Translations under genes and position numbers: made by a program
Notes under the pieces: generated by a model
Databases searched by the model: none
Seen by the model: only the letters and a program-made list of their open reading frames with translations
Told to the model about the DNA's origin: nothing
Shown here: piece after piece, positions 4,506 to 45,234 of the stretch
Numbering within the stretch: position 1 is the first letter of the stretch
Layout: each line of letters begins with the position of its first letter
Assembly: GCF_029887935.1 (NCBI RefSeq)
Contig: NZ_JARXRO010000014.1
Location: forward strand, 53,685 to 117,684
Length of the DNA: 64,000 nucleotides
Source of the DNA: Luteimonas kalidii
GTDB taxonomy: Bacteria; Pseudomonadota; Gammaproteobacteria; Xanthomonadales; Xanthomonadaceae
Reading direction: 5' to 3'

Positions 4506-4967
4506 CTAGTGCTTCGGCGTCCCAAGCTCCGCCTTCACCAGCTGCTTCCTGCGGATGAATTCCGCATGCGGCACCGCCAGGAGGTCCGCGACCCGACGCA
4601 CCATCAGTTCCTCGTGCTTGTCCAGGCGCGCATCGGCGAAGGCGACCCGCCACAGCCATTCGACCAGCTCCGCACGCTGGGCGGCATCGAGCCCGGGCCT
4701 CAGCTCGCGGGTGAACTCGTGCAGCGAGACCGACTGCCGCCGCGCTTCGTGCGCCTGTTCGATCAGCGACGCCAGCTCGGCAGGCGCCATGCGGAAGGCC
4801 GTTGCCATCGCCTGGTGCACCACGTCCAGCTCCACCTCGTCCCCGCCGTCGGCGGTCACCGCCATCTCCAGCAGCAGCGCGGCGGCCGCCCGCGGCAGCG
4901 CATGCGGATCGTCGCTGCGTTCGTGCCGGTTGACGATGCGGGTCAGGGCGCTGAACCAGTCGGTCAC
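4506..4967 (-). CDS. TerB-like tellurite resistance family protein
   Basis: A small acidic helical protein of about 153 residues with TerB features: AAAALLLEMAVTADGGDEVELDVVHQA near the N terminus and LVEWLWRVAFADARLDKHEELMVRRVADLL near the C terminus. The acidic clusters in these paired helical halves are where TerB binds metal. The GTG at 4967 gives a protein that begins at the first helix; the frame is open to 5117 with an ATG at 5087, so a longer form with a disordered leader cannot be excluded. No other ter genes are nearby, so a role in tellurite resistance is not implied. Confidence 0.8.
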   Translation of the reverse strand: MTDWFSALTRIVNRHERSDDPHALPRAAAALLLEMAVTADGGDEVELDVVHQAMATAFRMAPAELASLIEQAHEARRQSVSLHEFTRELRPGLDAAQRAELVEWLWRVAFADARLDKHEELMVRRVADLLAVPHAEFIRRKQLVKAELGTPKH

Positions 4968-5145
4968 GGGAGAGCCTGCCTGTGTCTCGGTGGAATTGGA
5001 GAAACTGGGGGCTACGGCAGGGTTCTCAACCGGGCCGCCGGCGGCCTGGCGCGAACCGCCAGCGTCGACCGGGGATGGCCGTGGCATATGTGCCGCGTGT
5101 CGTGGTCGGGATCCCATCGCGCGTGGCGCCGGCTCGCGATGCCCC

Positions 5146-5808
5146 TCAGTCCGGAGGCGCAGCCCGGCGGTAGTGCAGCAACCGTCCGCTTACGGCGCGG
5201 TCGTCGTCCTCCATCGCGAAGCGTGATTCGCTGACATCGAACCCCTGCGTGGCCAGCAGCCGGGTGAACCCACCGCTGTGGCCGCGACCTGGATCGGTGA
5301 TCACGACTTCGCACCCTTGGCGTGCGTGGCGCCTCACCACTTCGGACAGCAGCCCGGCAGTGCCGCGTTCGTACAGCACGTCGCTGGCGATGAGCATGTC
5401 GAACTCGCCCAGCGTGGGCAGCGGATGATCCCAGCGCAGTTGCCGGTAGTGCAGCGCAGGCAGCGCGTTGAGCGCGGCGTTGTAGGCCAGGAACGATTCG
5501 GCCAGCGGATGCATGTCCGTCGCCACGACGTCCGCGCCACGACGCTGCAGGACCAGGCTGGCCAGGCCGATGCCGCAGCCGATCTCCAGCACCCGCTTGC
5601 CGTCGACGTCGGCCCGGTCCATTGCCTCGGCCAGCAGCCGGCCCGAGGGCCACAGCTGACCGAACAGCGACCACTGTGCGGACGAAATGCCGAGGCGCTC
5701 GCCATGGCCATCGGGATCGGCGAACTGCTGGCGGTCGCTGAGCACGCGCAGCCGGTACGCGTGGTCGCCCACGACGACGGTGAGGATACGGGTACTGAAA
5801 CCAGGCAC
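5146..5808 (-). CDS. SAM-dependent methyltransferase (METTL/lysine-methyltransferase-like)
   Basis: A 220-residue class I methyltransferase. Motif I is VLEIGCGIGLASL, followed by the acidic post-I motif ATDMHP, and FDMLIASDVLYE provides the motif IV region typical of the Methyltransf_16 (FAM86/METTL21-like) group, whose members methylate protein lysines. I place the start at GTG 5808, which has GGGAG five bases upstream; the frame stays open to 5919 but the extra residues look like non-coding GC-rich sequence. Substrate unknown. It is followed 178 bases later by the TerB-like gene on the same strand. Confidence 0.8.
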   Translation of the reverse strand: MPGFSTRILTVVVGDHAYRLRVLSDRQQFADPDGHGERLGISSAQWSLFGQLWPSGRLLAEAMDRADVDGKRVLEIGCGIGLASLVLQRRGADVVATDMHPLAESFLAYNAALNALPALHYRQLRWDHPLPTLGEFDMLIASDVLYERGTAGLLSEVVRRHARQGCEVVITDPGRGHSGGFTRLLATQGFDVSESRFAMEDDDRAVSGRLLHYRRAAPPD

Positions 5809-6062
5809 GAGGCTCCCGGGAAGCGTCGCCGGGCACGGCCGGGCGATGACGCATGGAAGGGAGCGAGGCGGGCGACGGTCGCCGCGGAACGCGCACTGCG
5901 GGAATGGCCCGCGGGCCATGCTAGTCGAAACAGGAGTAGGGGACCATCAGGAAGGCGGGCGCGAAGCGGGCGGGGCCGGGTCCGATGCGGCCACAGGTGC
6001 TGACGTGCTGTTCGCGCCGCCGGCGCTACGGTCCGGGCGTCACGTTCCCTCCGGAGGCTCCG

Positions 6063-6554
6063 ATGCGACTCGAAGGTTCCTGCCACTGCGGCAATGTCCG
6101 CTTCAGCTGCGAGGCGTACGCACCCGCACCTTTCCTGCATTGCTACTGTTCGATCTGCCGCAAGACCGCGGGCGGGAGCGGCAGCGCGGTCAACCTCGGC
6201 GCGCGCGCGGACACGCTGGAGGTGGAGGGTCGCGGGCATCTGGGCGTCTACAACGCGAAGATCCGCAGGGACGACGGCAGTTGCCGCATCAGTTCGGGGC
6301 GCCGCCACTTCTGTACCGGATGCGGCAGCGCGCTGTGGCTGTTCGATCCCGACTGGCCGGACCTGGTGCATCCGCATGCGTCGGCCATCGACACCGAGCT
6401 TCCGCGGCCACCGGAGCGGGTGCACATGCTGCTGGACTCGAAGGCCAACTGGGTGCAGGTGCCGGACGGGCCGCACGACGTGCAGCTGGACGGTCTGCCG
6501 GAGGAATCGCTCGAGGACTGGCACCGGCGCCACGGCATGTTCGAGGGCGAGTGA
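6063..6554 (+). CDS. GFA/CENP-V family zinc protein (first of three)
   Basis: A 163-residue protein with the GFA fold's zinc ligands: CHCGNVRF near the N terminus, CYCSICRK about 20 residues later, and FCTGCGSALW in the centre. These paired Cys motifs define the family named after glutathione-dependent formaldehyde-activating enzyme; most members have no proven activity. ATG 6063 follows a good GGAGG. The C terminus (LEDWHRRHGMFEGE) is typical of the longer GFA subgroup. It lies divergent from the methyltransferase gene and ends just before a REP-like repeat. Confidence 0.85.
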   Translation: MRLEGSCHCGNVRFSCEAYAPAPFLHCYCSICRKTAGGSGSAVNLGARADTLEVEGRGHLGVYNAKIRRDDGSCRISSGRRHFCTGCGSALWLFDPDWPDLVHPHASAIDTELPRPPERVHMLLDSKANWVQVPDGPHDVQLDGLPEESLEDWHRRHGMFEGE

Positions 6555-6571
6555 GCGCGCGTCCGTCGGGT

Positions 6572-6601
6572 CCCGGGTGCGCTGCGCTTACCCGGGCTAC
6601 G
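6572..6601. repeat. REP-like palindromic repeat, copy 2
   Basis: CCCGGGTGCGCTGCGCTTACCCGGG followed by CTACG. The arms CCCGGGT and ACCCGGG are perfect inverses around a GCGC centre. It sits in the 116-base gap between convergent genes (GFA protein and FMN reductase), where it could also serve as a bidirectional transcription stop. Same element as at 1-28 and 40.1 kb. Confidence 0.65.
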
Positions 6602-6670
6602 CGATCGCGGATCGGCATGGGGATGGAACGGGGTATCGTCGCCGGGTGAGCGCAGCTCGCCCGAGACCCG

Positions 6671-7759
6671 CTACTTCTGCCGGGGCATGTCGAGAGTGGC
6701 GCCGGCCTCGCGCTGCCCTGCACGCAGCTGGCGGACGCGTTCGAGCAGTGCCCGCGCGGCGTTGCGGCTCTCCTCGATGACGGCCCGGTCCTCGTCGAGC
6801 GCGTCGTGGCTGGTGGCGTAGGGCGCGTAGTAGCCGATGTAGCGGTCCAGTTGCGACAGCGCGCCGGCGTCCACCAGGCCCATGCCGCGCAGCCAGTCGG
6901 ACAGCGCATGACGCACCAGCTGGGTTCCCTCGCTGTCGCCATGCACGACCACCGAGAAGGCGCGACCGGCCAGGTGCTGGGGGTAGTCCCAACCCTCGAG
7001 TTCCAGGCGCTTGGCGCGCGCCGGATCCTTGCCCTGCGTCGAAGTGGGATCGGGGTTGCCGCCGTCGGCGCAGACCAGGCGGTCCATCATCAGCTTCAGC
7101 GGCGAGGTGGCCTGGTTCCAGTGGACCGGCGTCACGATCATCACGCCGTGCGCCTCCGCCCAGCGCGGGTAGATCGCGTTCATCCAGTCCTGGTGCTGGC
7201 CCAGGCCGTGGTTGGGATAGCACGAGCACGGCCAATGGCACAGCGGCATCGCGGTGGACACGCAGCCCTTGCACGGATGGATGGTGCGGCCGAATTCGGA
7301 CGCGGTGCGGTTGAGTTCGAGCACGTCGCATTCCGCGCCCTGCGCCGTCGCCGCATCGCGCGCGGCCTCGAGCAGGCGCCAGGTCTTCGACATCTCGCCG
7401 GGACAGGTGTGCTCGCTGCGCGGCGAGGCGCAGACGAGAAGGAGTCGGTCCGGCGTGCCTGGTGCCTGCTGGCGTCGCGTGGCCTCCACGATGGCATCGC
7501 GCGCGGCGCGCCATTCGTCGGACAGCGCATAGGCAGGATCTTCGAAGCCGGGCCCGGCGGGATGCGTGTGCGGCGCCTTGCGGCCCTCGTCGTACGCGTT
7601 CCAGGCGATCGCGGCGAGCTGGTCGATGGCGCCACGGTGGGCATCGAATGCGGGGTCGGTGAAAGCGATGCGATAGCGACGCTCGAACTCGTCCCGGCCG
7701 AGCTTCGGATCGGGCTGGCCCTTTCGCGCGGGGGGAGGGGAAGCGGGCGTGTCGGTCAT
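6671..7759 (-). CDS. NADPH-dependent FMN reductase/flavodoxin-fold protein with Cys cluster
   Basis: A 362-residue protein. The central part has a flavodoxin-like fold of the FMN_red type: LLLVCASPRSEHTCPG as the phosphate-binding strand-loop, then MIVTPVHWNQATSPLKLMMDR, where the flavin-binding loop and dimer helix occur in this family. A cluster of five cysteines lies near residues 163-182 (CKGC, then CHWPCSCYP), reminiscent of the iron-sulfur flavoprotein group. The N-terminal 110 residues are an extra helical domain I do not recognise. The start at ATG 7759 lacks a strong ribosome site. Probably a cytosolic quinone or flavin reductase. Confidence 0.75.
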   Translation of the reverse strand: MTDTPASPPPARKGQPDPKLGRDEFERRYRIAFTDPAFDAHRGAIDQLAAIAWNAYDEGRKAPHTHPAGPGFEDPAYALSDEWRAARDAIVEATRRQQAPGTPDRLLLVCASPRSEHTCPGEMSKTWRLLEAARDAATAQGAECDVLELNRTASEFGRTIHPCKGCVSTAMPLCHWPCSCYPNHGLGQHQDWMNAIYPRWAEAHGVMIVTPVHWNQATSPLKLMMDRLVCADGGNPDPTSTQGKDPARAKRLELEGWDYPQHLAGRAFSVVVHGDSEGTQLVRHALSDWLRGMGLVDAGALSQLDRYIGYYAPYATSHDALDEDRAVIEESRNAARALLERVRQLRAGQREAGATLDMPRQK

Positions 7760-8176
7760 GGGTGTCGATTCGGTACGGGGTCGAGGGGCCCGTGGGGCGG
7801 GCGGGTCCGGAAGCGCGAATCCGCGGCGTCGGAAAATCGTGTCGCATCGCGCGTGTTCGGGAACGGTCGCGCGGTGAGGCGGGACATGGTGCGGACTTCG
7901 CCTGTCATCGGCACTGATGCTTGCGGCCGCGCGCCTGGACGGCGCACCGGATCGATGTGCGGCGATCCGACGCAATGGACGATGCCGGCGTCCGGGTGAA
8001 GCCGGTGTCGTGGGCAGACAGCCACGCTCACGCTGCGGGGAGCCACGGAATGTCCCGCGCGTCGCGTCGCGGGCGCGGGATCAGGCACCCCTGGACGGGT
8101 GGACAAATGCGATGGGCGCAGGGAAAGTGCACGCTGTTTCCGGCCCGCCGCGGCCGACTCTGGGGATCGATCGGAC
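7760..8176. other. Intergenic region between divergent genes
   Basis: 417 bases between the FMN reductase and the GH20 gene, which diverge. It must hold both promoters, but I see no clear -35/-10 pair, hairpin or repeat. The open frames crossing it in several phases have no family features and look like GC-rich chance frames. Confidence 0.5.
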
Positions 8177-9718
8177 ATGGGGTTCAAGGCTGTGTTGTGC
8201 GGAATGCTGGCCGTCGCCGGGGTCGTGTCCGGGTCGTCCGCTGCGGCTGTGGCGCCGGAGGCATCCGCCACTGCGGTGCACCTGGTGCCGTTGCCGCAAT
8301 CGCTGACGATGCGTGGCGGAGAACTGCGATTCGCCGATACGGTGGCGGTGCAGGTCGACACGCAGTCGCCTGGAGCTGAGGCGGCACTCGAGGCGACGCT
8401 GGAGTCGCTGGGAATCGCCGTCGCCGATGCCGGTGCCGTTTCCGATGTCGATGACGCGCCGACGCGCATCCGCCTGCAGCGCGTGGACGATCCTGCGCTG
8501 GGCGACGAGGGCTACCGGCTGGTCATCGCCGGTGACGTGCAACTCGGCGCCCGCACAGAGGCCGGCCTGCTGCATGCCGTGCAGACGCTGCGCCAGCTGC
8601 TGCCGGCGCAGCCGCAGGCGGACATACGCCTGCCGCGTCTGGAGATCGTCGACGCGCCAGCGTACCGATGGCGCGGGCTGTCGCTCGACGTGGCGCGGAG
8701 CTTCCTGCCGGTGGAATACGTCGAGCGGACGATCGACCGCATGGCCCTGTTCAAGTTGAACCGCCTGCACCTGCACCTGACCGACGACCAGGGCTGGCGA
8801 ATCGAGATCAAACGCTGGCCGAAGCTGGTGGAGATCGGCGGCGCCAGCGCGGTGAAGGGCGGCCGCAGCGGCTGGTACACCCAGGACGAACTGCGTCATC
8901 TGGTCGCCTACGCGCAGGCGCGCGGCATCACCATCGTGCCGGAGATCGACGTGCCCGGACACGTGCAGGCGGCGCTGGCCTCCTACAACGAACTGGCCTG
9001 CGACGACGAGGACAACCTGGCGCCGTACTCGGGACTGGAGGTGGGCTTCAGCGTGCTGTGCCTGGACAAGCCCGAGGTGGTGTATCCGTTCGTACAGCAG
9101 GTGCTGGAGGAAGTGCTGGCGATCTTTCCCTCGCAGGAAATCCACATGGGTGGGGACGAGATCAAGCACCCGCTGTACGGCGAGTTCGTGGCGCACACGG
9201 CCCGCATGGTCGAGGACATGGGACGCACGGCCATCTTCTGGGAGGAGGGGTCGGTGGCGGACACCCGTCCGGACGTGCTCTTCCAGTTCTGGAACGATGG
9301 CTACGACATCGCCGCGGCGGTCGAGGAAGGCCATCGGCTGATCCTCTCGCCGTGCTCGTACTTCTACATCGACCATGGCAACTACGCCGGCCAGCCGCAG
9401 ACCTACGACTGGTGCCGCAAGGAGGGCGTGCCGCTGGCGCGGCTGTACGCGTTCGATCCCACGCCGTTCCCGACCGCGGTGGGCATCGAGGCCGCGCTGT
9501 GGACCGAACTGGTGCACACCGATGCCGCTGCGGACAACCGCCTGTGGCCGCGCCTCGCGGCGGCGGCGGAGGTGGCGTGGACGCCGAAGGCGCAACGTCG
9601 CTACGAGGACTTCGTGCAGCGCACGGGCGCGTTGCGTCCGCACCTGGACGCGATGGGGATCGGCTACCACCCGGAGCCGGACCTGGGTTGGCAACCGGAC
9701 GCCGCGACGCCCGACTAG
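8177..9718 (+). CDS. Beta-N-acetylhexosaminidase (GH20)
   Basis: A 513-residue exported enzyme with a signal peptide (VLCGMLAVAGVVSG core). A GH20b-type N-terminal domain covers about residues 30-150 and the TIM barrel follows, opening with YRWRGLSLDVARSF. Barrel motifs are LHLHLTDDQGWRIEI, IVPEIDVPGHVQA, and the catalytic pair D327-E328 in HMGGDE, the Asp-Glu used in substrate-assisted catalysis. The C-terminal FVQRTGALRPHLDAMG is typical of chitin-oligosaccharide hexosaminidases. It removes terminal GlcNAc or GalNAc from chitin or peptidoglycan fragments in the periplasm or outside. The frame is open from 8099, but ATG 8177 opens the signal peptide. Confidence 0.93.
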   Translation: MGFKAVLCGMLAVAGVVSGSSAAAVAPEASATAVHLVPLPQSLTMRGGELRFADTVAVQVDTQSPGAEAALEATLESLGIAVADAGAVSDVDDAPTRIRLQRVDDPALGDEGYRLVIAGDVQLGARTEAGLLHAVQTLRQLLPAQPQADIRLPRLEIVDAPAYRWRGLSLDVARSFLPVEYVERTIDRMALFKLNRLHLHLTDDQGWRIEIKRWPKLVEIGGASAVKGGRSGWYTQDELRHLVAYAQARGITIVPEIDVPGHVQAALASYNELACDDEDNLAPYSGLEVGFSVLCLDKPEVVYPFVQQVLEEVLAIFPSQEIHMGGDEIKHPLYGEFVAHTARMVEDMGRTAIFWEEGSVADTRPDVLFQFWNDGYDIAAAVEEGHRLILSPCSYFYIDHGNYAGQPQTYDWCRKEGVPLARLYAFDPTPFPTAVGIEAALWTELVHTDAAADNRLWPRLAAAAEVAWTPKAQRRYEDFVQRTGALRPHLDAMGIGYHPEPDLGWQPDAATPD

Positions 9719-9769
9719 GGAGGACTAACGTCCCGCAGCTGCAAGGCATGGCGTTCGGTCGGGTACCGT

Positions 9770-9793
9770 GCGCTTTCGCGATCGCGAAAGCGC
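9770..9793. terminator. Perfect 24-bp palindrome between convergent genes
   Basis: GCGCTTTCGCGA followed directly by TCGCGAAAGCGC, a perfect inverted repeat with no spacer. It lies 51 bases after the GH20 stop and 59 bases before the stop of the opposing pseudouridine synthase, so it most likely ends transcription from both sides. There is no T-run. Its symmetry and central GCGATCGC could also make it a protein-binding site. Confidence 0.5.
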
Positions 9794-9852
9794 TCTACCG
9801 TCGCATTGAAGGCCCGGGCTGAGGATCACGGGGCCGAGCCGCAAACGACGCC

Positions 9853-10575
9853 TCAGAAGCGTTCGCCCGCCGGCAGGTAGCGCCATGCACCCACCGGCAT
9901 CTTCGCCAGCGACACGCGTCCGATGCGCAGGCGCCGGATCGCCACCACCTCCAGGCCCACCTGCCTGCACACGTCGCGCAGCTGGCCCGGCTGCACGCCC
10001 TTGAGCGCGAAGCGCAACCGCACCTCGTTCTGCCAGCTGACCTTGCACGCGGGCAGCGCGCGGCCGCGGTAGTGCAGGCCATGCTTGAGCCTGGCCAGGC
10101 CGTACGGGGCGATCTCGCCGACCACTTCCACCACGAACTCCTGTTCGATCGCCTCGACATCTTCGGTCAGGCGCCGCCACACGCGGCCGTCCTGTGTGAG
10201 CACCACCAGGCCAGTGGCCTCGGCGTCCAGCGGCACCAGCGGCGTGAGGCGGTGGAAGTGGCGCTGCAGCAGGCGCACCCCGGACGGATCGTCGGGCCAG
10301 CGCGTTTCGGGCCGGACCAGTGCGGCGACAGCGCCGGGATCGCGGCCGGCGTCGAGGTCGGCGGGCCGGTGCAGCAGCACCGTGGCCGGCTCGATCGCAT
10401 CCAGTCGCGCGGCCGGGTCGAGCTCGACGGTCTCGTCGCGCACCGCCAGCGCAGGATCCTCGACCACCACGCCATCCACCCGCACCCATCCGCCCTTGAT
10501 GTACTGCTCAGCCTCGCTGCGCGGGCAGCGGGCGAGGGCGGAGACGCGTTTGGCCAGTCGCACCGGTTCTGACAT
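9853..10575 (-). CDS. RsuA/RluF-family 23S/16S rRNA pseudouridine synthase
   Basis: A 240-residue enzyme. An S4 RNA-binding domain fills residues 1-60 (RLAKRVSALARCPRSEAEQYI, then WVRVDGVVVEDP). The catalytic domain carries the conserved Asp at 117 in PLDAEATGLVVLTQDG, a variant of the GRLDxxTxGL motif. LPACKVSWQNEVRLRFALKGVQPGQLRDVCRQVG is the RsuA/RluF C-terminal signature. It isomerises one uridine in rRNA, and by similarity RluF (23S) is more likely than RsuA. The Arg that usually precedes LD is a Pro-Leu here, a mild deviation. It diverges from the RIO kinase gene. Confidence 0.85.
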   Translation of the reverse strand: MSEPVRLAKRVSALARCPRSEAEQYIKGGWVRVDGVVVEDPALAVRDETVELDPAARLDAIEPATVLLHRPADLDAGRDPGAVAALVRPETRWPDDPSGVRLLQRHFHRLTPLVPLDAEATGLVVLTQDGRVWRRLTEDVEAIEQEFVVEVVGEIAPYGLARLKHGLHYRGRALPACKVSWQNEVRLRFALKGVQPGQLRDVCRQVGLEVVAIRRLRIGRVSLAKMPVGAWRYLPAGERF

Positions 10576-10687
10576 TGCTCCACGCCACGCGATTCAGGAC
10601 AGGCAGTGTAGCGATCGGGCACTCTAGGCGCCCTGCGATCCGCGCGTCGCCTGTTGCGCCGCGCGGCGCGCCCATGATCGAGGTGCC

Positions 10688-11545
10688 ATGAAAACCCCGT
10701 CCGGCCTGCAGCCGCTGATCGACGATGGCGTGATCGACGCCGTGATGCGGCCGCTCAAGAGCGGCAAGGAGGCGGCCGTGTACGTCGTCAGCGCAGGCGG
10801 GGAGATCCGCTGCGCCAAGGTCTACAAGGACATGGCCCAGCGCAGCTTCCAGCAGCGCGTGCAGTACCAGGAGGGCCGCAAGGTGCGCGGCAGCCGCGAG
10901 GCGCGCGCGATCGCCAAGGCCAGCAAGTACGGCCGGCGCCAGCAGGAAGCCGAGTGGAAGAACACCGAGGTCGAGGCGCTGTACCAGCTGCGCGATGCCG
11001 GTGTCCGGGTGCCCGAACCCTTCGGCTACTTCCACGGCGTGCTGGTGATGGAACTGGTGGTCGATGCGGACGGCCATTCCGCGCCGCGGCTCGGCGAAGT
11101 GGAGCTGGCGCCGGAACAGGCGCGCGGTTTCCACCGCTTCCTGGTGCGGCAGGTGGTGAAGATGCTGTGCGCCGGGCTGATCCACGGCGACCTGTCCGAG
11201 TACAACGTGCTGGTCGCCCCGGACGGCCCGGTGATCATCGACCTGCCGCAGGTGGTCAGCGCGGCGGGCAACAATGCCGCGCGCACGATGCTGCTGCGCG
11301 ACGTGAACAACCTCACCGCCAGCCTCGGCGCGTGGGCGCCGGAGCTGCTGGACACCTGGTACGGCGAAGAGATGTGGGCGCTGTACGAGGCCGGCGAGCT
11401 GCATCCGGATACCGAGCTCACGGGGCGGTTCGAGCACGACGAGTCCGCGCCCGACCTCGACGGCGTCCGCCATGCGATCAACGACGCGCGCGAGGAAGCC
11501 CTGATCCGCCAGCAGGGCCGCGAGGCGGCCGCCGAGGGGGATTGA
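10688..11545 (+). CDS. RIO1-type atypical protein kinase
   Basis: A 285-residue RIO kinase. The ATP-loop region reads SGKEAAVYVV with the Lys of CAKVYKD. RSFQQRVQYQEGRKVRGSREARA is the RIO flexible loop. The catalytic loop HGDLSEYNVL places Asp168, and the metal-binding IDLPQ places Asp185. In eukaryotes and archaea RIO kinases mature the small ribosomal subunit; bacterial members phosphorylate unknown targets or act as ATPases. GAGGTG precedes ATG 10688. It is divergent from an rRNA pseudouridine synthase, which fits but does not prove a ribosome-related role. Confidence 0.9.
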   Translation: MKTPSGLQPLIDDGVIDAVMRPLKSGKEAAVYVVSAGGEIRCAKVYKDMAQRSFQQRVQYQEGRKVRGSREARAIAKASKYGRRQQEAEWKNTEVEALYQLRDAGVRVPEPFGYFHGVLVMELVVDADGHSAPRLGEVELAPEQARGFHRFLVRQVVKMLCAGLIHGDLSEYNVLVAPDGPVIIDLPQVVSAAGNNAARTMLLRDVNNLTASLGAWAPELLDTWYGEEMWALYEAGELHPDTELTGRFEHDESAPDLDGVRHAINDAREEALIRQQGREAAAEGD

Positions 11546-11806
11546 CGCGTATCGGGGCGATGGTGGAGCGGCAGCCTGCGCGTCGACCGCACGGCTGGCG
11601 CCACGCGTGAACGCGACGGGACACGCATCCGGAGCGGCGCGATGGTGTTGCGGCAGGCGGGGTGTCCTGCTTGCCGGCAACGGTGCATTGACACGGCGGC
11701 TGGCACCATCGTCATTCGTCCGGGAATGCATTCGCCACGCGATCCCGATCCGTTTCGGAGCCGATCTGATGCCGTATGGCCCGTCCAGCGCGTGCCGAGG
11801 GGCCCG

Positions 11807-12319
11807 ATGAGCCGGGATCCTGGTGGTGATCCGCGCGTCTCCGGTCCGCCCGCCCCAGTGGATGCATCCGCCGCCGGCATCGTCGGAACCTGGCGGCTGC
11901 TGGCGTACGAGGTGGAGGTACGCGCGACCGGACGCCGCTTCCCCGCGATGGGGGAGCGACCGTCCGGCTACACCATCTTCAGCCCGGAAGGCCGGGTCTG
12001 GTTCATGCTGACCGGCGACGGACGCGAGCCCGGCGACAGCGACGCGGAGATGGCCCGGCTGCTCGAAAGCCTGATCGCCTATACCGGGCGCTACCGCATC
12101 GAGGGCGACGACTGGATCACCGAGGTCGATGTGGCCTGGAACCCGGCGTGGGTCGGCACCGGGCAGCGGCGCCAGTTCGCACTGGACGGCGACCGCCTGG
12201 AGGTACTCACGCCCTGGCGCGTGATGCCGAACTGGGCCGACGAGGGCGAGTCGCGCAGCATCATCACTTTCGAGCGCGTCACCGTCGAACGCGTGGCCGG
12301 GGCGGTCGCTCCCGAGTGA
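11807..12319 (+). CDS. Lipocalin-like domain protein
   Basis: A 170-residue protein with a single lipocalin_5-type domain. GTWRLLAYEVE opens the first strand, and RPSGYTIFSPEGRVWFMLTGDGR, YTGRYRIEGDDWITEVDVAWNPAW and GESRSIITFERV complete the eight-stranded barrel pattern. No signal peptide is evident, so it is probably cytosolic. GAGG lies six bases before ATG 11807; the frame is open upstream to 11642 but without coding character. It sits 72 bases before another lipocalin of a different subfamily, on the same strand. Confidence 0.75.
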   Translation: MSRDPGGDPRVSGPPAPVDASAAGIVGTWRLLAYEVEVRATGRRFPAMGERPSGYTIFSPEGRVWFMLTGDGREPGDSDAEMARLLESLIAYTGRYRIEGDDWITEVDVAWNPAWVGTGQRRQFALDGDRLEVLTPWRVMPNWADEGESRSIITFERVTVERVAGAVAPE

Positions 12320-12390
12320 CGTTCGCGACGTCACGTGGCGCCGACCGGGTCGCGGCCACGCTTGGCGCATCGTGGTCGGGAGTCCTCGAC

Positions 12391-12993
12391 ATGCGTCATC
12401 CGATAATCCTTGCGGCCCTCTTGGCCGGCCCGCTCGCGGCCGCCGGCATCGCCGCCGCAGCGCCGCCTGATCCACGGCCCAACGTGCCGGTGGACGACGT
12501 CGACCTGTCGTGCTACGCGGGCACCTGGTACGAACAGGCGCACCTGCCGATGGTGTTCCAGCGCCAGTGCGTGTCCGACACGACCGCCCGCTACCGGCTG
12601 CAGGCCGACGGCACGGTGGAGGTCCTGAACCGGTGCCGGACGCGCGAGGGCGGCTTCGAGCAGGCGCGCGGCGTGGCGCGCACGGTCCACGGACGCACGT
12701 CCACGCTGGAAGTGCGGTTCGCGCCGGCCTGGCTGTCGTGGCTTCCCGTGGTCTGGGGCGACTACTGGGTGATCGCGCTCGACGAGGCCGACTACCGGTG
12801 GGCCATGGTCGGCGCGCCCGACGCGGACTACCTGTGGATCCTCTCGCGCACGCCGCAGCTGGCCCCCGCGGTGCGTGCACGGCTGGTGGAGCAGGCCCGC
12901 GCGATGGGCTATCCGGTGGACGAGCTGATCGAGACTCCGCAGCGCTCGCAGGCGCCGGCCGGTCAGGCCGCCGAACCCGCGCCAGCGCAGTGA
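12391..12993 (+). CDS. Blc-type bacterial lipocalin
   Basis: A 200-residue exported lipocalin. The signal peptide (ILAALLAGPLAAAGIAAAA) is followed by DVDLSCYAGTWYEQAHLP, the lipocalin GxW motif and family start. CVSDTTARYRL and VEVLNRCR follow, and YWVIALDEADYRWAMVG and YLWILSRTP match the closing strands of E. coli Blc. No lipobox is seen at the cleavage region, so it is probably soluble periplasmic rather than a lipoprotein. Blc proteins bind lysophospholipids and help in membrane repair. The C-terminal 20 residues are Ala/Pro/Gln-rich. Confidence 0.87.
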   Translation: MRHPIILAALLAGPLAAAGIAAAAPPDPRPNVPVDDVDLSCYAGTWYEQAHLPMVFQRQCVSDTTARYRLQADGTVEVLNRCRTREGGFEQARGVARTVHGRTSTLEVRFAPAWLSWLPVVWGDYWVIALDEADYRWAMVGAPDADYLWILSRTPQLAPAVRARLVEQARAMGYPVDELIETPQRSQAPAGQAAEPAPAQ

Positions 12994-13033
12994 CCGTGCC
13001 GCGCGTCGCGACCGGGCCCGATATCCTGTCTGC

Positions 13034-13999
13034 GTGACCCGACCTCCGCGCATCGTGCTCGACGGCGTTCCCGCCAGCCGGCTCCAGCTCCCGCCCGGCC
13101 CCTGGGCGACGGTGCTGGATGGCCTGTGCGCGAGGTTTCCCGCGATCGATGCGGCCACCTGGCACGCGCGATTCGCGCGCGGGCGCGTGCTGGACGTGGA
13201 CGGCCACCCGCTCGATGCCGACGCGGCATACCGGGTCGGCGCCGAGATCCGGTACTTCCGCGAAGTCCCGGACGAGCCGCTGCTGCTGTCCGTCGAAACC
13301 GTCGTGCATGCCGATGCGCACTTGGTAGTCGCCTGCAAGCCGCATTTCCTGCCCGTCGCGCCCACCGGAGCCTGGGTGCGCGAGACGCTGCTGTCGCGTC
13401 TGGTGCGCAAGCTGGGCAATCCCGCGCTGGTGCCGCTGCATCGGATCGACCGCGACACGGCGGGCCTGGTGATGTTCTCGGCCGATCCCGCCAGCCGCGG
13501 CGCCTACCAGGCGCTGTTCCGCGAGCGGCGCATCCGCAAGCACTACCTGGCCCTCGCGCCGCCGCTCCCGGCCTTGGCCTTCCCGCACGTGCAGCGCAGC
13601 CGCCTGGAGCGGGGCGAGCCGTTCTTCCGCATGCGCGAGGTGCCCGGCGCCCACAACAGCGAGACCGTGGTCGACGTGGCGGCCCGTGGTCACGAAGCGT
13701 GGACCTATCGCCTGGCGCCGGTCACCGGCCGCAAGCACCAGCTGCGCGTGCACATGGCGGCGCTGGGCGCGCCGATCGTGCACGACCGCTGCTATCCAAC
13801 GCTGCAGGTCCGGAACGCCGACGACTCCGATCGCGCGCTGCAGCTGTTCGCCCACGCACTGGCCTTCGACGATCCCCTGAGCGGCGAACCGCGCACATTC
13901 CTCGCGCCGGGTGGGGCAGGGTGGGAGGGGGTGTCCGGCGCGATGCAGGAGGCGTCGGCTGCGCCGATGCTGGAACGACCGCACGCTGTCGGACGCTGA
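13034..13999 (+). CDS. RluA-family pseudouridine synthase
   Basis: A 321-residue enzyme, GTG start. An N-terminal S4-like part precedes the catalytic RluA domain. The active site reads PLHRIDRDTAGLVMF, with catalytic Asp139 in the HRLDxxTSG position. YRLAPVTGRKHQLRVHMAALG is the second RluA signature (TGRxHQLRVH). It modifies uridine in rRNA or tRNA; sequence alone does not tell RluA, RluC and TruC relatives apart. The C-terminal 25 residues after the FAHALAF strand are low-complexity. It is convergent with the 568-residue unknown gene. Confidence 0.87.
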   Translation: MTRPPRIVLDGVPASRLQLPPGPWATVLDGLCARFPAIDAATWHARFARGRVLDVDGHPLDADAAYRVGAEIRYFREVPDEPLLLSVETVVHADAHLVVACKPHFLPVAPTGAWVRETLLSRLVRKLGNPALVPLHRIDRDTAGLVMFSADPASRGAYQALFRERRIRKHYLALAPPLPALAFPHVQRSRLERGEPFFRMREVPGAHNSETVVDVAARGHEAWTYRLAPVTGRKHQLRVHMAALGAPIVHDRCYPTLQVRNADDSDRALQLFAHALAFDDPLSGEPRTFLAPGGAGWEGVSGAMQEASAAPMLERPHAVGR

Positions 14000-37506: not shown

Positions 37507-37722
37507 ACGGGTGCGCGCGCCCTCGAAGCGCGCCTGTATTGCGCAGGAGCCGGTCTCGTGGGTGTGCACCCGGCATCGGGGTGCGTTCACACGCACGGGT
37601 CGCCGCTGTGCGTAGGCTGGGGCGCGAGGACCTGTCCGGGCATCGGTCAGGGCGAGGATGCCTGACCGGTGACGGCTGGCGGCCCCGGGCGCGGTCGCCC
37701 CGGCGCGGCCAAGGGAGGCGCG

Positions 37723-38718
37723 ATGTGGAAGCACAGGCTGAGGGTGGATTTCCACCTGGGCATCGTGGTGATGTTCGGCGCGATCACCGTGCTCGGCATC
37801 GCCCCGTTCGGCATCTACCGCCATCTCACCGGTGAGTGGTTGATCGCCCTGATCGATCTCGTCATCGTCGCCAGCATCGTCGGTGCCGTGCTGTACGCGT
37901 GGCGCACCGGGCGCACCGCGGGGGTGGCCTCCTTCCTCGCCGCGACCTACTCGCTGGGATGCGTCGCGGTGGCGCACCTGGCTGGATTGCCCGGCCTGCT
38001 CTGGGTGTATCCGGTGCTGGTCGCGAACTTCCTGCTCGTGCGGCGCTGGCCGGCACTGCTGATCTCGGCCGCGGCCGCGGCGGCGGTCATGGCCAGCGAT
38101 GCCGCCCTCGCCACGCCGGTGGAGAAAATCCTGTTCATGGTCACCGCGATCGTGGTCAGCCTGTTCTCCTTCGTGTTCGCCTCGCGTGCGGAACTGCAGC
38201 GCTCGCAGCTGGAGGCGATCGCACTGCGCGATCCCCTCACCGGAGCCGGCAACCGGCGCGGGCTCGAGCTCGAGCTGCATGCCGCGATCGTCACCAGCCA
38301 GCGGCAGGCGACGCCGCTGGGGATGCTGATCTTCGACATCGACCACTTCAAGGCGATCAACGACGACTTCGGCCACGAGGCGGGCGACGACGTGCTGGTG
38401 CAGCTGGCAACCGTCGTGCGCGGCAGCACCCGTGCCAACGACCGCTTCTTCCGCCTCGGCGGCGAGGAGTTCACCCTGCTGCTCCCCGGGGCCAGTGGTG
38501 CCGCACTGTGGGCGATCGCGGAAAAGCTGCGATCGGCCGTCGAGACGGACGTGCAGTGCAGGGGGCGCACGGTCACCATCTCGATCGGCGCGGCCAGCCA
38601 CCAGGGTGGCGAATCGGCGGCGGAGTGGCTGGCGCGTGCGGACGCGGCGATGTATCGCGCCAAGCGGGGTGGGCGCAACCGCACGATGACCGCGGACGAC
38701 GGCGACGGGCCCTCCTGA
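37723..38718 (+). CDS. Membrane diguanylate cyclase (GGDEF) with inhibitory site
   Basis: A 331-residue protein. Five to six membrane segments fill residues 10-165 and end in a short helix, ASRAELQRSQLEAIALRDPLTGAGNRRG, the usual link to GGDEF. The catalytic GGEEF motif is at 246-250, and RAND at 237-240, five residues before it, is an intact I-site (RxxD), so product inhibition by c-di-GMP is expected. FDIDHFKAINDDFGHEAGDD and MYRAKRGGRNR complete the domain. GGGAGG precedes ATG 37723. It makes c-di-GMP from GTP; the signal sensed by the membrane part is unknown. Confidence 0.92.
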   Translation: MWKHRLRVDFHLGIVVMFGAITVLGIAPFGIYRHLTGEWLIALIDLVIVASIVGAVLYAWRTGRTAGVASFLAATYSLGCVAVAHLAGLPGLLWVYPVLVANFLLVRRWPALLISAAAAAAVMASDAALATPVEKILFMVTAIVVSLFSFVFASRAELQRSQLEAIALRDPLTGAGNRRGLELELHAAIVTSQRQATPLGMLIFDIDHFKAINDDFGHEAGDDVLVQLATVVRGSTRANDRFFRLGGEEFTLLLPGASGAALWAIAEKLRSAVETDVQCRGRTVTISIGAASHQGGESAAEWLARADAAMYRAKRGGRNRTMTADDGDGPS

Positions 38719-38937
38719 ACCGGCGGATCATGCGCGTCTGGCCGAAGCACTGGCACGGACGTCGCCGCGCGAGCGGCAGGTGCGGCGAGGAGTTGGGCGA
38801 CGCAGGCGCGTGGCCGCCGTTCCGGCTGCGCCGGGCAGCCACGCGCGCAGCGGCACGACCCGCGCCGCGTGCAGTCCGCGTTGTTGCCTACGCCGCCCGT
38901 TGCTACCCTCGCGCCTGGTCTGGAATGGGGGCAGGGC

Positions 38938-39987
38938 ATGCGCAGGCGACACTTCCTCGGTACCGCCGCGATGGCCGCCAGCGCGGCGCTCGCTCCCGGC
39001 GTCGGATCGGCTGCGCGCTCCGGTGCCGGGATGGCGCAACGCCTGCCCAGGCCGCTGTCGCCCGGCGGCACGGTCGCCCTGGTCAGCCCGTCCTCGGCGG
39101 TCTCCGACCCGTTCGACCTCCAGCTTGCGCGCGAGGTGATGGAAGCGCTGGGGCTGCGCGTGACCACGGGCGCCCACTACGCGGCGCGGCGCGGCCACCT
39201 CGCGGGCACCGATGCCGAACGCGCGGGCGACCTCAATGCCGCATTCGCCGACCCGCAGGTCGACGCGATCGTCTGCACCCGCGGCGGGTCTGGCGCGGCG
39301 CGCCTGCTGCCGCTGCTGGACTACGACGCGATCCGTGCGAATCCCAAGGTGCTGCTCGGCTACTCCGACGTCACTGCGCTGCACTGCGCGATCCAGGCAC
39401 GCACCGGGCTGGTGACCTTCCACGGTCCGATCGGCACCGGCAGCTGGAACCGGTTCAACGCAGACCAGTTCCGGCGCGTGTTCTTCGAGCGCGAACTGCT
39501 GCGCTACGAAAACCGCATCGAGGCCGGCGACGAACTCGTGCCGCGACGCAACCGCACCCGCACGCTCACGCCAGGCAAGGCGCGGGGCCGCCTGCTGGGC
39601 GGCAACCTCACGGTGCTCACCGCGCTTGCCGGCTCGCCCTACCTGCCGGATTTCGACGGCGCCATCCTGTTCCTCGAGGACGTGTCGGAGGCGCCGTACC
39701 GGGTCGACCGTATGCTCACCACGCTCAGCCTGATGGGCGTGCTCGACCGCATCGCGGGCTTCGTGTTCGGCGAGTGCACCGAGTGCGACCCGGGCGATGG
39801 CTACGGGTCGCTGACGCTGTCGCAGATCCTCGACGACTTCATCTTGCCGCTCGGCATCCCGGCCTATACCGGAGCGATGATCGGCCACATCCGCGAGCAG
39901 TTCATCCTGCCGGTCGGCGGCGAGGTGGAACTCGACGCCGACGCCGGCACGCTGCGCCTGCTGGCGCCGGCGTTCGCGGGCGGGTGA
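38938..39987 (+). CDS. LD-carboxypeptidase (peptidase S66), Tat-exported
   Basis: A 349-residue serine peptidase. The leader MRRRHFLGTAAMAASAALAPG carries a twin-arginine motif (RRxFL), so export in folded form is likely. The S66 nucleophile is Ser143 in LLGYSDVTALH; GTRGGSGAARLLPLLDYDAI before it, LEDVSEAPYRVDRML (catalytic Glu) and GAMIGHIREQFILPVGG (catalytic His) complete the Ser-Glu-His triad. It trims L,D-peptide bonds of recycled murein tetrapeptides. Being exported distinguishes it from cytosolic LdcA. Confidence 0.93.
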   Translation: MRRRHFLGTAAMAASAALAPGVGSAARSGAGMAQRLPRPLSPGGTVALVSPSSAVSDPFDLQLAREVMEALGLRVTTGAHYAARRGHLAGTDAERAGDLNAAFADPQVDAIVCTRGGSGAARLLPLLDYDAIRANPKVLLGYSDVTALHCAIQARTGLVTFHGPIGTGSWNRFNADQFRRVFFERELLRYENRIEAGDELVPRRNRTRTLTPGKARGRLLGGNLTVLTALAGSPYLPDFDGAILFLEDVSEAPYRVDRMLTTLSLMGVLDRIAGFVFGECTECDPGDGYGSLTLSQILDDFILPLGIPAYTGAMIGHIREQFILPVGGEVELDADAGTLRLLAPAFAGG

Positions 39988-42458: not shown

Positions 42459-42677
42459 ATGTCGAAACTGCTTGAACTGATGCGCAAGCTTGGCAGCGAC
42501 GCGGCACTTGCCGCGGAGTACGACAAGGATCCGGACGGAGTGATGCAGCGCGCCGGCCTGTCGGAGTCCGAGCACAAGGCGATGTCCGAGAAGGACTACA
42601 CCGCGATCAAGCGCCTGACCGGCCTGACCGACGGCAAGTTCGCCACCAACCACATCGTCAAGGCGTACGAAGACTAG
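42459..42677 (+). CDS. Putative split-borosin RiPP precursor peptide
   Basis: A 72-residue peptide. Residues 1-55 (KLLELMRKLGSDAALAAEY, DPDGVMQRAGLSESEHKAM) form a helical block very like the borosin-binding domain of the Shewanella SonA precursor, itself related to LigA-type domains. The last 17 residues (TDGKFATNHIVKAYED) would be the tail that is N-methylated on the backbone; ATNHIV is the likeliest core. GGGGGAGA precedes ATG 42459. The methyltransferase-fusion gene starts ten bases after the stop, so the two are cotranscribed. That it is a precursor is inferred from size, sequence and its partner. Confidence 0.8.
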   Translation: MSKLLELMRKLGSDAALAAEYDKDPDGVMQRAGLSESEHKAMSEKDYTAIKRLTGLTDGKFATNHIVKAYED

Positions 42678-42687
42678 ACCCCGCGAC

Positions 42688-45234
42688 ATGGGCGCGCGCC
42701 AGGGAGTGGTCCGGCCATGCGTGGCGCTGTTCGTCTGCTGGATGGCGGCGGCCGGGCCCGCGCACGCCAATCCCTCTCTCGAGCCGCAGGTCGTCGAGAT
42801 CGAGCGGCTGTCCATCAATCAGCACTGGCGTGAATCGGCCGCCAGGATCGAGGCGCTCGCAGCACAGCCGGTCGAGATGTCCGCGGAACAGCGACAGCGC
42901 GTGGAGTTCGTGCGCCTGCGCAATCTCGGCATAGCGGGCGCGCCGCGCGACGCGATCGAGGGATTCGAGACGCTGCTGCGCGAGCCGATGCCCGCGCCGC
43001 TGCGCGTCCGCGCCTACACCACGGCCATCAGCATCGCGGCGAACGTCGAGGACTGGTCGCTGGCGTTCCGCTGGCTCAGCGAGGCGCTGGCCTTCCTGCC
43101 CGAGGCGCCGGGCGAATCGGCCCGCCTGCTCGGCGTGGCCAGTTACCTGCACACGCTGGTCGGCGAGACCGGCAAGGCGCGCGAACTCGCGCTGCGCGGC
43201 CTGAGCCTGGTCGAGGGTGGCGACGACCCCCGCGCGATCTGCCATGCGATGGGCGACGTGGCCCTGGCCGAGGACCACGCCCGCCACTTCACCGAAGCCG
43301 AGCGCTGGCGTCACCGCCAGATCGAGGCCTGCAGCAAGGCCGGCGACCGCATCTTCACTGCGAACGGCAAGTATGGCGTGGGCAAGATGCTGGCCGGTCA
43401 GGGGCGGCCGGCCGAAGCGCTGACCTGGGCGCGCGAGGCCCTGGCCGACTTCGAGGCCGCCGGCTTCGACGCCGGGGCCTGGAGCGCGCGACTGGTCGTC
43501 GCCGACAGCCTGATCGCCACCAACCGCGAACTCGACCACGCGCACGACCTGCTGACCGACACCCTGCGCTACTACCGCGAGCAGGGGTCGGACCTGGCCA
43601 TCGCGGAGACCGAGCACCTGTTCGCGCGGCTGGCCGAGCGCCGCGGCGACCTGCCGCTGGCGCTGCAGCACCTCAAGTCCGCGGGCTCGGCGTCGGAGGC
43701 GGCTGAGCGCATGGCGCGCGAACGCCAGCTGGCCTACCTGCAGGTCGAATTCGACACCCGGATGAAGGAGCAGCAGATCGCGCTGCTCGAGGCGGAGAAG
43801 GAACTGGCCGCGCTGCAGGTCACCGCGACCCGGCGCTGGCAGTGGCTGCTGGCCGCGGGCCTGGTGGCGTTGCTCGCGACCGCGCTGCTGCTGACGATCC
43901 TCCTGCGCCGCTCGTTCCGCGAGCGGCGCCGCTACCGCTGGCAGTCCGAGCACGACAGCCTGACCCGTCTGCTCAACTACCAGCAGGTGCGCAAGGACGG
44001 CGAGGAGGCGTTCGATCGGGCGCGGCGCGAAGGCCGGCCGTTCACCGCGATCGTCGCCGACATCGACCGTTTCAAGGAGGTCAACGACCGCCACGGACAC
44101 GCCGCTGGCGACGAGGCCCTGCGCTCGCTGGGCACCTGGATCACCGAGGAAGTCGGCGCGCAGGGTATCGCCGGGCGCAGCGGCGGCGACGAGTTCACCA
44201 TCCTGCTCGATGGCGACCGCGACCAGGCCCAGGACCTGCTGCGGCGCCTGCGTGGACGGATCGAACCGGTGACCGTGTTCGGTCATACCGTGCACTTCAG
44301 CATCAGCGCCGGCATCTGCCAGGCCAACGGCCACGCGACCACGCTCGAGCAGCTGGTGCACGACGCCGACCAGGCGCTGTACCGCGCCAAGTACGAGGGC
44401 CGCGACCGCACGGTCTGCACCAGCGACGCGCCGCCCGATGCGCGCGAGGGCGGCGGACTGGTGGTGGTGGGCAGCGGCATCGAGTTCGGCCGCCACGTCA
44501 GCGAACGCTGCCTGTCGGAGATCCGCGAGGCGCAGGTGGTGTTCTGCCTGACGGACCCGTTCGCCCTGGCGATGATCCAGGGCTTCCGCCCCGATACGAT
44601 CAACCTCGGCGTGTATTACGCCGACGGCAAGGACCGGCGCCAGACCTACCGCGAGATCGATGCCGCGATCATGGCCGAGGTGCTGGCCGGCAAGCGCGTG
44701 TGCACGGTGTTCTACGGCCATCCGGGGGTGTTCGCCGACGTGCCGCACGCCGTGGTCCGGAAGGCGCGGGAGGCGGGCATTCCGGCGCGCATGGAGCCGG
44801 GCATCTCCGCCGAGGCCTGCCTGTACGCCGATCTGGGCATCGATCCAGGGCGCCGCGGCGTGCATTCGATGGAAGCGACCCATTTCCTGCACTACGACCG
44901 CGTGCCCGACACCGCCGGCCTGCTCCTGCTGTGGCAGGTGGCGCTGTCGGGCGACCTGAGCTGCACCCGGTTCCATGCCGAGCGCGAGGGACTGCAGGCG
45001 CTGGTGGACCGGCTGCAGCGCTGGTATCCGCCGGACCACGAGGTGATCCTGTACGAGGCGGCACGGCTGCCGATCGAATCCGCGCGCGTCGACCGTGTCG
45101 CGCTGCGCGACCTGCCGGACGCGCATTACGAGGAATACACCACGCTGGTGATCCCGCCCTTGGGCGAGCTGCGCGTCGGTGGCGGAGCCGATCCGGTCGG
45201 AGACCCCGAACCGGGCACTGGGCCCACGCGCTGA
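42688..45234 (+). CDS. Transmembrane GGDEF protein fused to a borosin-type alpha-N-methyltransferase
   Basis: An 848-residue fusion. Signal peptide about 1-27; a periplasmic helical TPR-like region 28-350; a coiled segment; one membrane span at 386-406; a GGDEF domain with GGDEF at 499-503; and a tetrapyrrole-methylase (SAM) domain at 590-825. The cyclase lacks the RxxD I-site (GAQG there) but keeps DIDRFKEVNDRHGH and ALYRAKYEGRDR. In the methylase, VVVGSGI opens the SAM site and FYGHPGVF is at 675-682. Y644, R650, Y654 and Y676 have the same spacing as OphMA's Y66, R72, Y76 and Y98, residues needed for backbone N-methylation. The catalytic domains face the cytosol, where the precursor is made. 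Confidence 0.9.
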   Translation: MGARQGVVRPCVALFVCWMAAAGPAHANPSLEPQVVEIERLSINQHWRESAARIEALAAQPVEMSAEQRQRVEFVRLRNLGIAGAPRDAIEGFETLLREPMPAPLRVRAYTTAISIAANVEDWSLAFRWLSEALAFLPEAPGESARLLGVASYLHTLVGETGKARELALRGLSLVEGGDDPRAICHAMGDVALAEDHARHFTEAERWRHRQIEACSKAGDRIFTANGKYGVGKMLAGQGRPAEALTWAREALADFEAAGFDAGAWSARLVVADSLIATNRELDHAHDLLTDTLRYYREQGSDLAIAETEHLFARLAERRGDLPLALQHLKSAGSASEAAERMARERQLAYLQVEFDTRMKEQQIALLEAEKELAALQVTATRRWQWLLAAGLVALLATALLLTILLRRSFRERRRYRWQSEHDSLTRLLNYQQVRKDGEEAFDRARREGRPFTAIVADIDRFKEVNDRHGHAAGDEALRSLGTWITEEVGAQGIAGRSGGDEFTILLDGDRDQAQDLLRRLRGRIEPVTVFGHTVHFSISAGICQANGHATTLEQLVHDADQALYRAKYEGRDRTVCTSDAPPDAREGGGLVVVGSGIEFGRHVSERCLSEIREAQVVFCLTDPFALAMIQGFRPDTINLGVYYADGKDRRQTYREIDAAIMAEVLAGKRVCTVFYGHPGVFADVPHAVVRKAREAGIPARMEPGISAEACLYADLGIDPGRRGVHSMEATHFLHYDRVPDTAGLLLLWQVALSGDLSCTRFHAEREGLQALVDRLQRWYPPDHEVILYEAARLPIESARVDRVALRDLPDAHYEEYTTLVIPPLGELRVGGGADPVGDPEPGTGPTR

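Follow-up and report, generated by a model that had tools for sequence, protein, structure and literature searches.

Two borosin systems are among the closest described relatives of the locus analyzed here. The type IV split borosin of Shewanella oneidensis, SonM/SonA, pairs a backbone N-methylating enzyme with a separate precursor peptide (PMC8429565), while in OphMA, the omphalotin methyltransferase, the peptide is part of the enzyme itself (PMC6108569). We analyzed a 64,000-nucleotide stretch of Luteimonas kalidii (contig NZ_JARXRO010000014.1, positions 53,685 to 117,684; hereafter the window), in which the gene of a 72-residue borosin-type precursor peptide precedes a single gene for an 848-residue protein that fuses a likely tetratricopeptide repeat (TPR) sensor to one membrane span, a GGDEF domain and a SonM-like methyltransferase. 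On balance, we favour the reading that the methylated core of the peptide is the ligand of the TPR sensor that sets the cyclic diguanylate (c-di-GMP) output, and that the methyltransferase acts on this core. What can be read directly from the DNA and protein sequences is which parts are present and how they are arranged, the catalytic residues, the conserved neighbourhood, the placement in the tree and, in the SonM clade of Shewanella, the joint diversification and swapping of core and TPR region; the steps between methylation and c-di-GMP are proposed.

Among solved structures, the methyltransferase domain (44413–45231) matched SonM (7ltc) at E 3.5e-69, OphMA at about 1e-38 and the MroMA proteins at 2.4e-35, and thus falls in the OphMA/SonM branch of the tetrapyrrole methylases; a cobalamin or siroheme enzyme was considered and rejected, as precorrin/siroheme matches reached only E 6e-4 or weaker. 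The domain shares 114 of 241 aligned residues with SonM (47%), and SonM Y58, R67, Y71, and Y93 align with Y644, R650, Y654, and Y676 of the fusion at a residue offset of 586, then 583. A sequence-only reading of this DNA had picked the same four positions by way of the OphMA key residues Y66, R72, Y76, and Y98 (PMC6108569), for which it gave one constant offset of 578; the alignment with SonM returned the four residues unchanged, but with an offset that is not constant. In SonM, kcat falls about 2-fold with Y93F, 15-fold with Y58F, 43-fold with R67K, and 84-fold with Y71F (PMC8429565). The peptide matched SonA (7ltc_B) at E 9e-5 over residues 1–56, in agreement with the SonA-like leader and the borosin-type pairing of methyltransferase and precursor proposed by that reading, so that a borosin identity of the window locus, as judged from these comparisons, is well supported. 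With SonM/SonA it has in common the 47% identical methyltransferase with its four catalytic residues, the separate precursor and the leader type, but it differs in that methyltransferase and TPR-GGDEF are joined in one protein, the precursor comes first and the core is another one. It also falls outside the strict type IV split borosin definition, which asks for a discrete methyltransferase of about 263 residues, while that of the window is the C-terminal domain of the 848-residue protein. OphMA, in contrast, is a member of the same methyltransferase family with its peptide built in.

The ORF (open reading frame) reading places the two genes 10 bases apart on the + strand. In the fusion, Pfam searches recovered GGDEF (E 2e-35, residues 421–574), TP_methylase (E 3.7e-18, residues 591–792) and TPR_12 (E 8e-7, slightly below the curated cut-off), and the hydropathy profile contained a single hydrophobic span with peak windows at 387–406. 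The spacing as well as the succession of probable signal peptide, TPR-like region, one span, GGDEF and methylase that had been described beforehand were therefore reproduced. For the peptide, the only Pfam indication was LigA (E 5.5e-4, below the cut-off); this family was also tried as a peptide finder and abandoned, since its matches, obtained in 4 of 5 genomes, were weak and all stayed below the cut-off.

Both partners are conserved. The peptide search returned 265 proteins at E ≤ 0.01, and the idea of a chance ORF was set aside; in the alignment of 121 sequences (120 listed of the 265 matches plus the query) T54, G55, L56, and H65 were unchanged, while F61, A62, N64, and Y70 each differed in one or two sequences. 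A search with the methyltransferase domain (E ≤ 1e-5) gave 323 clusters of proteins as long as the fusion or nearly so, and all 120 clusters among the matches listed, that of the window included, had both PF00990 and PF00590. These 120 fused proteins all retained GG(D/E)EF, and a GGDEF domain with a lost motif was set aside on this ground; an inhibitory RxxD site was present in just one. The metal/nucleotide residues D458, N466, and D467 of the GGDEF domain, together with D460 and most of the motif, were invariant in 29 aligned fusions. Within the genus of the window, 13 of 37 genomes carried the fused form (its own counted), and all 18 fused loci read had a precursor where the fusion begins (the window, L024, L055–L066, and L101–L104; in L024, L060, L062, and L103 the longest ORF covers the precursor and the start of the fusion is uncertain), so that the conserved peptide beside homologous fusions, put forward earlier as a check, is present. 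It is extremely improbable, in our estimate, that the methyltransferase domain no longer acts on the peptide and modifies another substrate: the four catalytic residues are invariant in the 29 fusions, the precursor is kept in every fused locus read, and an eroded fused locus (L069 in genome G013, 6257–8240) has retained its TPR-GGDEF part while only about 39 C-terminal residues of the methyltransferase and a short N-terminal piece of the precursor are left, the two having been lost together.

The fusion has unfused counterparts in its own order (Xanthomonadales). Thirteen related loci (L067, L068, and L106–L116; L108 and L113 with over-long ORFs) consist of three genes, namely precursor, TPR-GGDEF protein (mostly 578–621 residues) and methyltransferase, and in several of them the ORFs of the latter two touch or overlap. 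In a tree of 101 methyltransferase domains, built with a quick method and supported by SH-aLRT (Shimodaira–Hasegawa-like approximate likelihood ratio test) values only, the 18 fused domains grouped together (86) within a 35-row clade (99) of mostly precursor-first gene order; this nesting suggests, as the most likely course, a single origin of the fusion from an operon of three genes. A second lineage of the same order has the gene order methyltransferase, precursor, GGDEF protein. None of the 13 GGDEF proteins from unfused operons with the precursor in front had the RxxD site, against 38 of 57 GGDEF ORFs of the methyltransferase-first lineage. We chose 67 split loci of the order from the search matches; in 65 of them a GGDEF ORF on the same strand overlapped or lay no more than 1.3 kb away, the exceptions being L105, which is cut by a contig end, and L199, which has none; in L174 and a few other split loci the ORF start was set too early. 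Of these 65 GGDEF-adjoined loci, 59 had a recognisable precursor: the first profile found it in all 13 precursor-first loci and in L117, and an iterated profile, which includes its own matches, in 45 of 51 methyltransferase-first loci. The profile of fusion residues 25–382 matched, across the long loci collected, 66 of 73 adjacent GGDEF ORFs and 11 of 28 non-adjacent ones, 10 of these 11 in loci with an adjacent match too. By simple arithmetic (30 GGDEF matches in a 3.96 Mb genome) a GGDEF neighbour would be expected by chance in about 1% of cases, and eight 13-kb control stretches around other, weak tetrapyrrole-methylase matches had neither a GGDEF ORF (0/8) nor a precursor, the methylase-like ORF itself being recovered in only 4 of the 8 at E ≤ 1. 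Two split loci have additional cyclases: L117 (G073, 4869–9545) reads GGDEF, methyltransferase, precursor, second GGDEF, i.e., two candidate receptors around one peptide, and L111 (G120, 7206–13305) has three GGDEF proteins sharing one sensor type.

The same association was found around close relatives of SonM. A SonM relative (E ≤ 1e-30) occurred in 52 of 60 Shewanella genomes, and 71 of 72 Shewanella loci had a downstream same-strand GGDEF ORF within 1.5 kb (only a short one in L275 and L311; L261 ends at a contig end), with a recognisable precursor in 69 of the 72. SonM grouped with the Shewanella loci L185 and L186 in the tree (SH-aLRT 99), and in the Shewanella genomes read, its relatives, up to 99% identical, precede a precursor and a TPR-type GGDEF gene; the 99%-identical one is in genome G1084, and such operons carry the GGDEF neighbour. 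The fusion of the window appears to be derived from a widespread module, to which the operons with the 99%-identical SonM also belong. NCBI names the Shewanella neighbour "tetratricopeptide repeat-containing diguanylate cyclase"; with TPR-containing membrane diguanylate cyclases the fusion shares signal peptide, TPR, membrane span and GGDEF, and it adds the C-terminal borosin methyltransferase. In L243, for instance, the TPR-GGDEF gene follows the precursor after 6 bases by the longest ORF, or after about 63 if the 575-residue form of NCBI is correct, its Pfam TPR matches are below the cut-off, and its sensor half fits the profile of the fusion. Three Shewanella loci (L244, L249, and L268) have two precursors before one TPR-GGDEF gene, and the two of L244 have different core types. 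Elsewhere the output domain is exchanged: in L188 and L190 a TPR-bearing hybrid histidine kinase directly follows the precursor, and in L189 such a kinase stands between precursor and methyltransferase, with a TPR-GGDEF protein afterwards. Judging by the gene content of these loci, the TPR sensor is the constant partner and the output domain the part that changes. The sequence-only proposal of a tie to c-di-GMP signalling and to a periplasmic signal is supported as far as c-di-GMP and a likely periplasmic sensor go, by a conserved TPR-GGDEF partner in fused and split loci alike.

In the SonM clade of Shewanella, the core of the peptide diversifies together with this sensor. Distances between cores were compared with distances between TPR regions as partial correlations, with methyltransferase and GGDEF distances held fixed, and set against permutations; in the loci with two precursors, the one adjoining the cyclase was used. 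An exploratory set of 18 Shewanella loci gave a core–TPR partial r of 0.71 (0/300 permutations as high), and, under an earlier rule for cutting the core, the value was 0.64 in 44 loci of the SonM clade (0/1000) and 0.55 in 28 loci with a single precursor after thinning of near-copies (0/1000). With improved cutting, it was 0.59 (0/1000) in 50 loci, which are the 52 of the SonM clade minus L261 and L275, and 30 fresh usable loci, fetched after the idea had arisen, gave 0.52 (0/2000). In the SonM clade, core against methyltransferase was −0.04 and core against GGDEF 0.02. Along the cyclase, the core signal was 0.32–0.43 in the three most N-terminal windows, 0.62–0.63 in the middle of the TPR region and 0.56–0.61 just before the membrane, and dropped from the membrane span onward, where the near-zero values of the GGDEF windows are partly due to GGDEF being held fixed, although the raw core–GGDEF correlation is likewise only 0.10. 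Mean identities in this clade were 30% for the core, 35% for the TPR region, 54% for the leader, 55% for GGDEF and 73% for the methyltransferase.

Pairs of operons display the same pattern. Between L243 and L244, the DNA is 95–98% identical in the methyltransferase windows, 96–100% in the leader and 91–97% in the cyclase from residue 321 on, while the end encoding the core falls to 47% and cyclase residues 1–290 to 41–54%. Similarly, L247 and L264 share 99% of GGDEF with 27% of the core and 51% of the TPR region, and L243 and L247 share 80% of the core and 91% of the TPR region with 82% of GGDEF. Core and TPR region, swapped between otherwise near-identical Shewanella operons, appear matched, as would be expected of a signal peptide ligand and the receptor that recognises it. 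Co-variation could also stem from linkage only, with adjacent segments recombining together and no binding involved. The precursor and cyclase genes do adjoin (6 bases in L243 by the longest ORF), and the leader co-varies with the TPR region as well (0.67), so that part of the core–TPR signal could come from the adjacency of the segments. Linkage is nevertheless probably not the whole cause: the signal is lower next to the peptide gene (0.32–0.43) than in mid TPR (0.63) and the leader of L243/L244 remained 96–100% identical while the core was replaced; moreover, the core–TPR correlation persisted when the leader was fixed too (0.38, 0/1000 in the 50 SonM-clade loci). We therefore regard linkage as the sole explanation as very unlikely.

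Loci in which peptide and receptor vary together are known from pheromone systems such as ComQXP and agr, which are polymorphic pheromone–receptor loci. By analogy, peptide and sensor half would diversify and swap together in Shewanella while the output half stays, but the present module is Gram-negative, has a backbone N-methylating enzyme and a c-di-GMP output, and its binding step is a prediction. According to the mechanism that we favour, the methyltransferase domain likely N-methylates the backbone of the core, after which the leader would be removed and the core exported to the periplasm; there, the matured core would bind the TPR region as a ligand, and the sensor would set the c-di-GMP output of the cyclase, the sign of this effect being conjectural. 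In the fused lineage, the channel would use one conserved signal, since the core is nearly fixed there, while in Shewanella several specificities would have emerged from it, like known pheromone types. A more general proposal, which we hold to be evenly poised, is that split borosins are Gram-negative pheromones whose N-methylated core is the ligand of a periplasmic TPR receptor with a c-di-GMP or, after domain exchange, a phosphorelay output, that cassette swaps produced several core–receptor types in Shewanella, and that in Luteimonas and its relatives maker and receiver are united in one protein. An ordinary secreted borosin product, with a neighbouring cyclase that merely regulates production, would account for the diverse cores of the Shewanella SonM clade (mean identity 30%), and RiPP (ribosomally synthesized and post-translationally modified peptide) clusters can carry regulators. 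We consider it quite unlikely, as the sensor half of a mere regulator has no need to diversify with the core, and the core of the fused lineage is nearly invariant, unlike a weapon.

Several results weigh against a ligand–receptor relation or leave gaps in it. Co-variation of core and TPR was null in the lineage of the window (n = 30, r 0.08, reached by 58/300 permutations), in the methyltransferase-first lineage (n = 48, r 0.06, 32/300) and in a second Shewanella clade (n = 16, r 0.07, 341/1000); these three tests have low power because the cores are conserved there, and the window's own lineage gives no direct support for co-variation. The permutations ignore descent, for which fixing methyltransferase and GGDEF is a partial remedy. 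Seven methyltransferase loci that lie outside the order and Shewanella sets, or are remote within them (L191–L196 and L199), have no such neighbour; in L191 and L192, whose methyltransferases are remote (39–40% identity), a small ORF (77 and 70 residues, respectively) immediately precedes the methyltransferase gene, and a GGDEF neighbour is absent. The iterated profile recognised no precursor in 6 of the 51 methyltransferase-first loci, no exporter was present among the seven window neighbours scanned with Pfam, and no pepsin-like PF00026 match was obtained in the genome of the window, where the control was likewise silent. The lack of an exporter among these seven neighbours and a precursor without an evident signal peptide would also suit a cytoplasmic switch, in which the peptide stays inside, its binding or methylation on the methyltransferase toggles GGDEF and the TPR region senses something else; the fusion indeed joins its methyltransferase to GGDEF on the predicted cytoplasmic side. 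This arrangement is unlikely in our view, since what the cyclase and kinase forms have in common is the TPR sensor and not GGDEF, and the core co-varies with TPR instead of GGDEF or methyltransferase in the SonM clade of Shewanella.

Part of this architecture has been recorded before. The legend of Figure 1 in PMC11395268 lists "GGDEF, GGDEF-sequence-containing domain" among the borosin architectures and credits borosin types V–X to Imani 2022 and Cho 2022. The locus shares the GGDEF domain with that key, and the passages covered name neither a TPR sensor nor a signalling role; the sequence-only statement that no borosin with this architecture had been described is thus weakened as regards GGDEF. 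Neither GGDEF nor diguanylate is mentioned in the main text of PMC8429565, and in the open-licence literature we found no paper joining borosin and c-di-GMP and none on peptide pheromones or peptide ligands of TPR diguanylate cyclases in Gram-negatives or Shewanella. What is new, on the evidence of gene order and homology, is the context, i.e., gammaproteobacterial split borosins in a module with a TPR receptor-like neighbour, and the earlier reading had missed both this wider module and the likely ligand–receptor relation of peptide core and TPR region. If that relation holds, there would be a modified-peptide signalling route into the c-di-GMP control of Gram-negative bacteria, of which the fusion would be nature's single-chain variant, and bacterial borosin peptides would have a likely function as the sensor's own signal. 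A TPR neighbour that co-diversifies with the core in Shewanella makes the function of the peptide directly testable via c-di-GMP.

Table 1. Features of the borosin-type locus, with positions in the window
Feature	Position	Strand	Basis
Borosin-type precursor peptide gene, 72 residues	42459..42677	+	ORF and SonA match
Leader / borosin-binding-like part, residues 1–55	42459..42623	+	Aligned with SonA 1–56; conserved in 121 aligned peptides
Predicted core, residues 56–72 (LTDGKFATNHIVKAYED)	42624..42674	+	Placed after the SonA-like leader; L56 and H65 invariant
TPR / membrane / GGDEF / borosin methyltransferase fusion, 848 residues	42688..45234	+	ORF, Pfam, protein family
Probable signal peptide, fusion residues 1–27	42688..42768	+	Hydrophobic stretch ending AHA, from sequence
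Probable periplasmic TPR sensor region, residues 28–340	42769..43707	+	TPR_12; homologues in GGDEF ORFs of split loci
Membrane span, about residues 386–407	43843..43908	+	Hydropathy; Arg-rich stretch follows
GGDEF domain, residues 421–574, motif GGDEF at 499–503, no RxxD inhibition site	43948..44409	+	PF00990
SonM-like methyltransferase domain, residues 589–829	44452..45174	+	SonM match, 47% identity
Stretch holding the catalytic residues Y644, R650, Y654, Y676	44617..44715	+	SonM alignment

Shewasin A, a pepsin-like peptidase, reportedly has a role in borosin processing. Around the locus of the window, a gene of an S66 LD-carboxypeptidase (38869–39987; PF02016, PF17676) is encoded on the same strand about 2.5 kb upstream, separated from the peptide gene by an arabinofuranosidase gene of the opposite strand. 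S66 relatives were found upstream in 9 of the 17 other fused loci (one of them partial), and close before the precursor in L057, L061, L062, and L064; the S66 gene could reflect synteny within the genus or be a candidate processing enzyme. A second, separate GGDEF protein of 349 residues is encoded about 4 kb upstream (37669–38718), and L055 and L056 have a GGDEF ORF at a similar distance.

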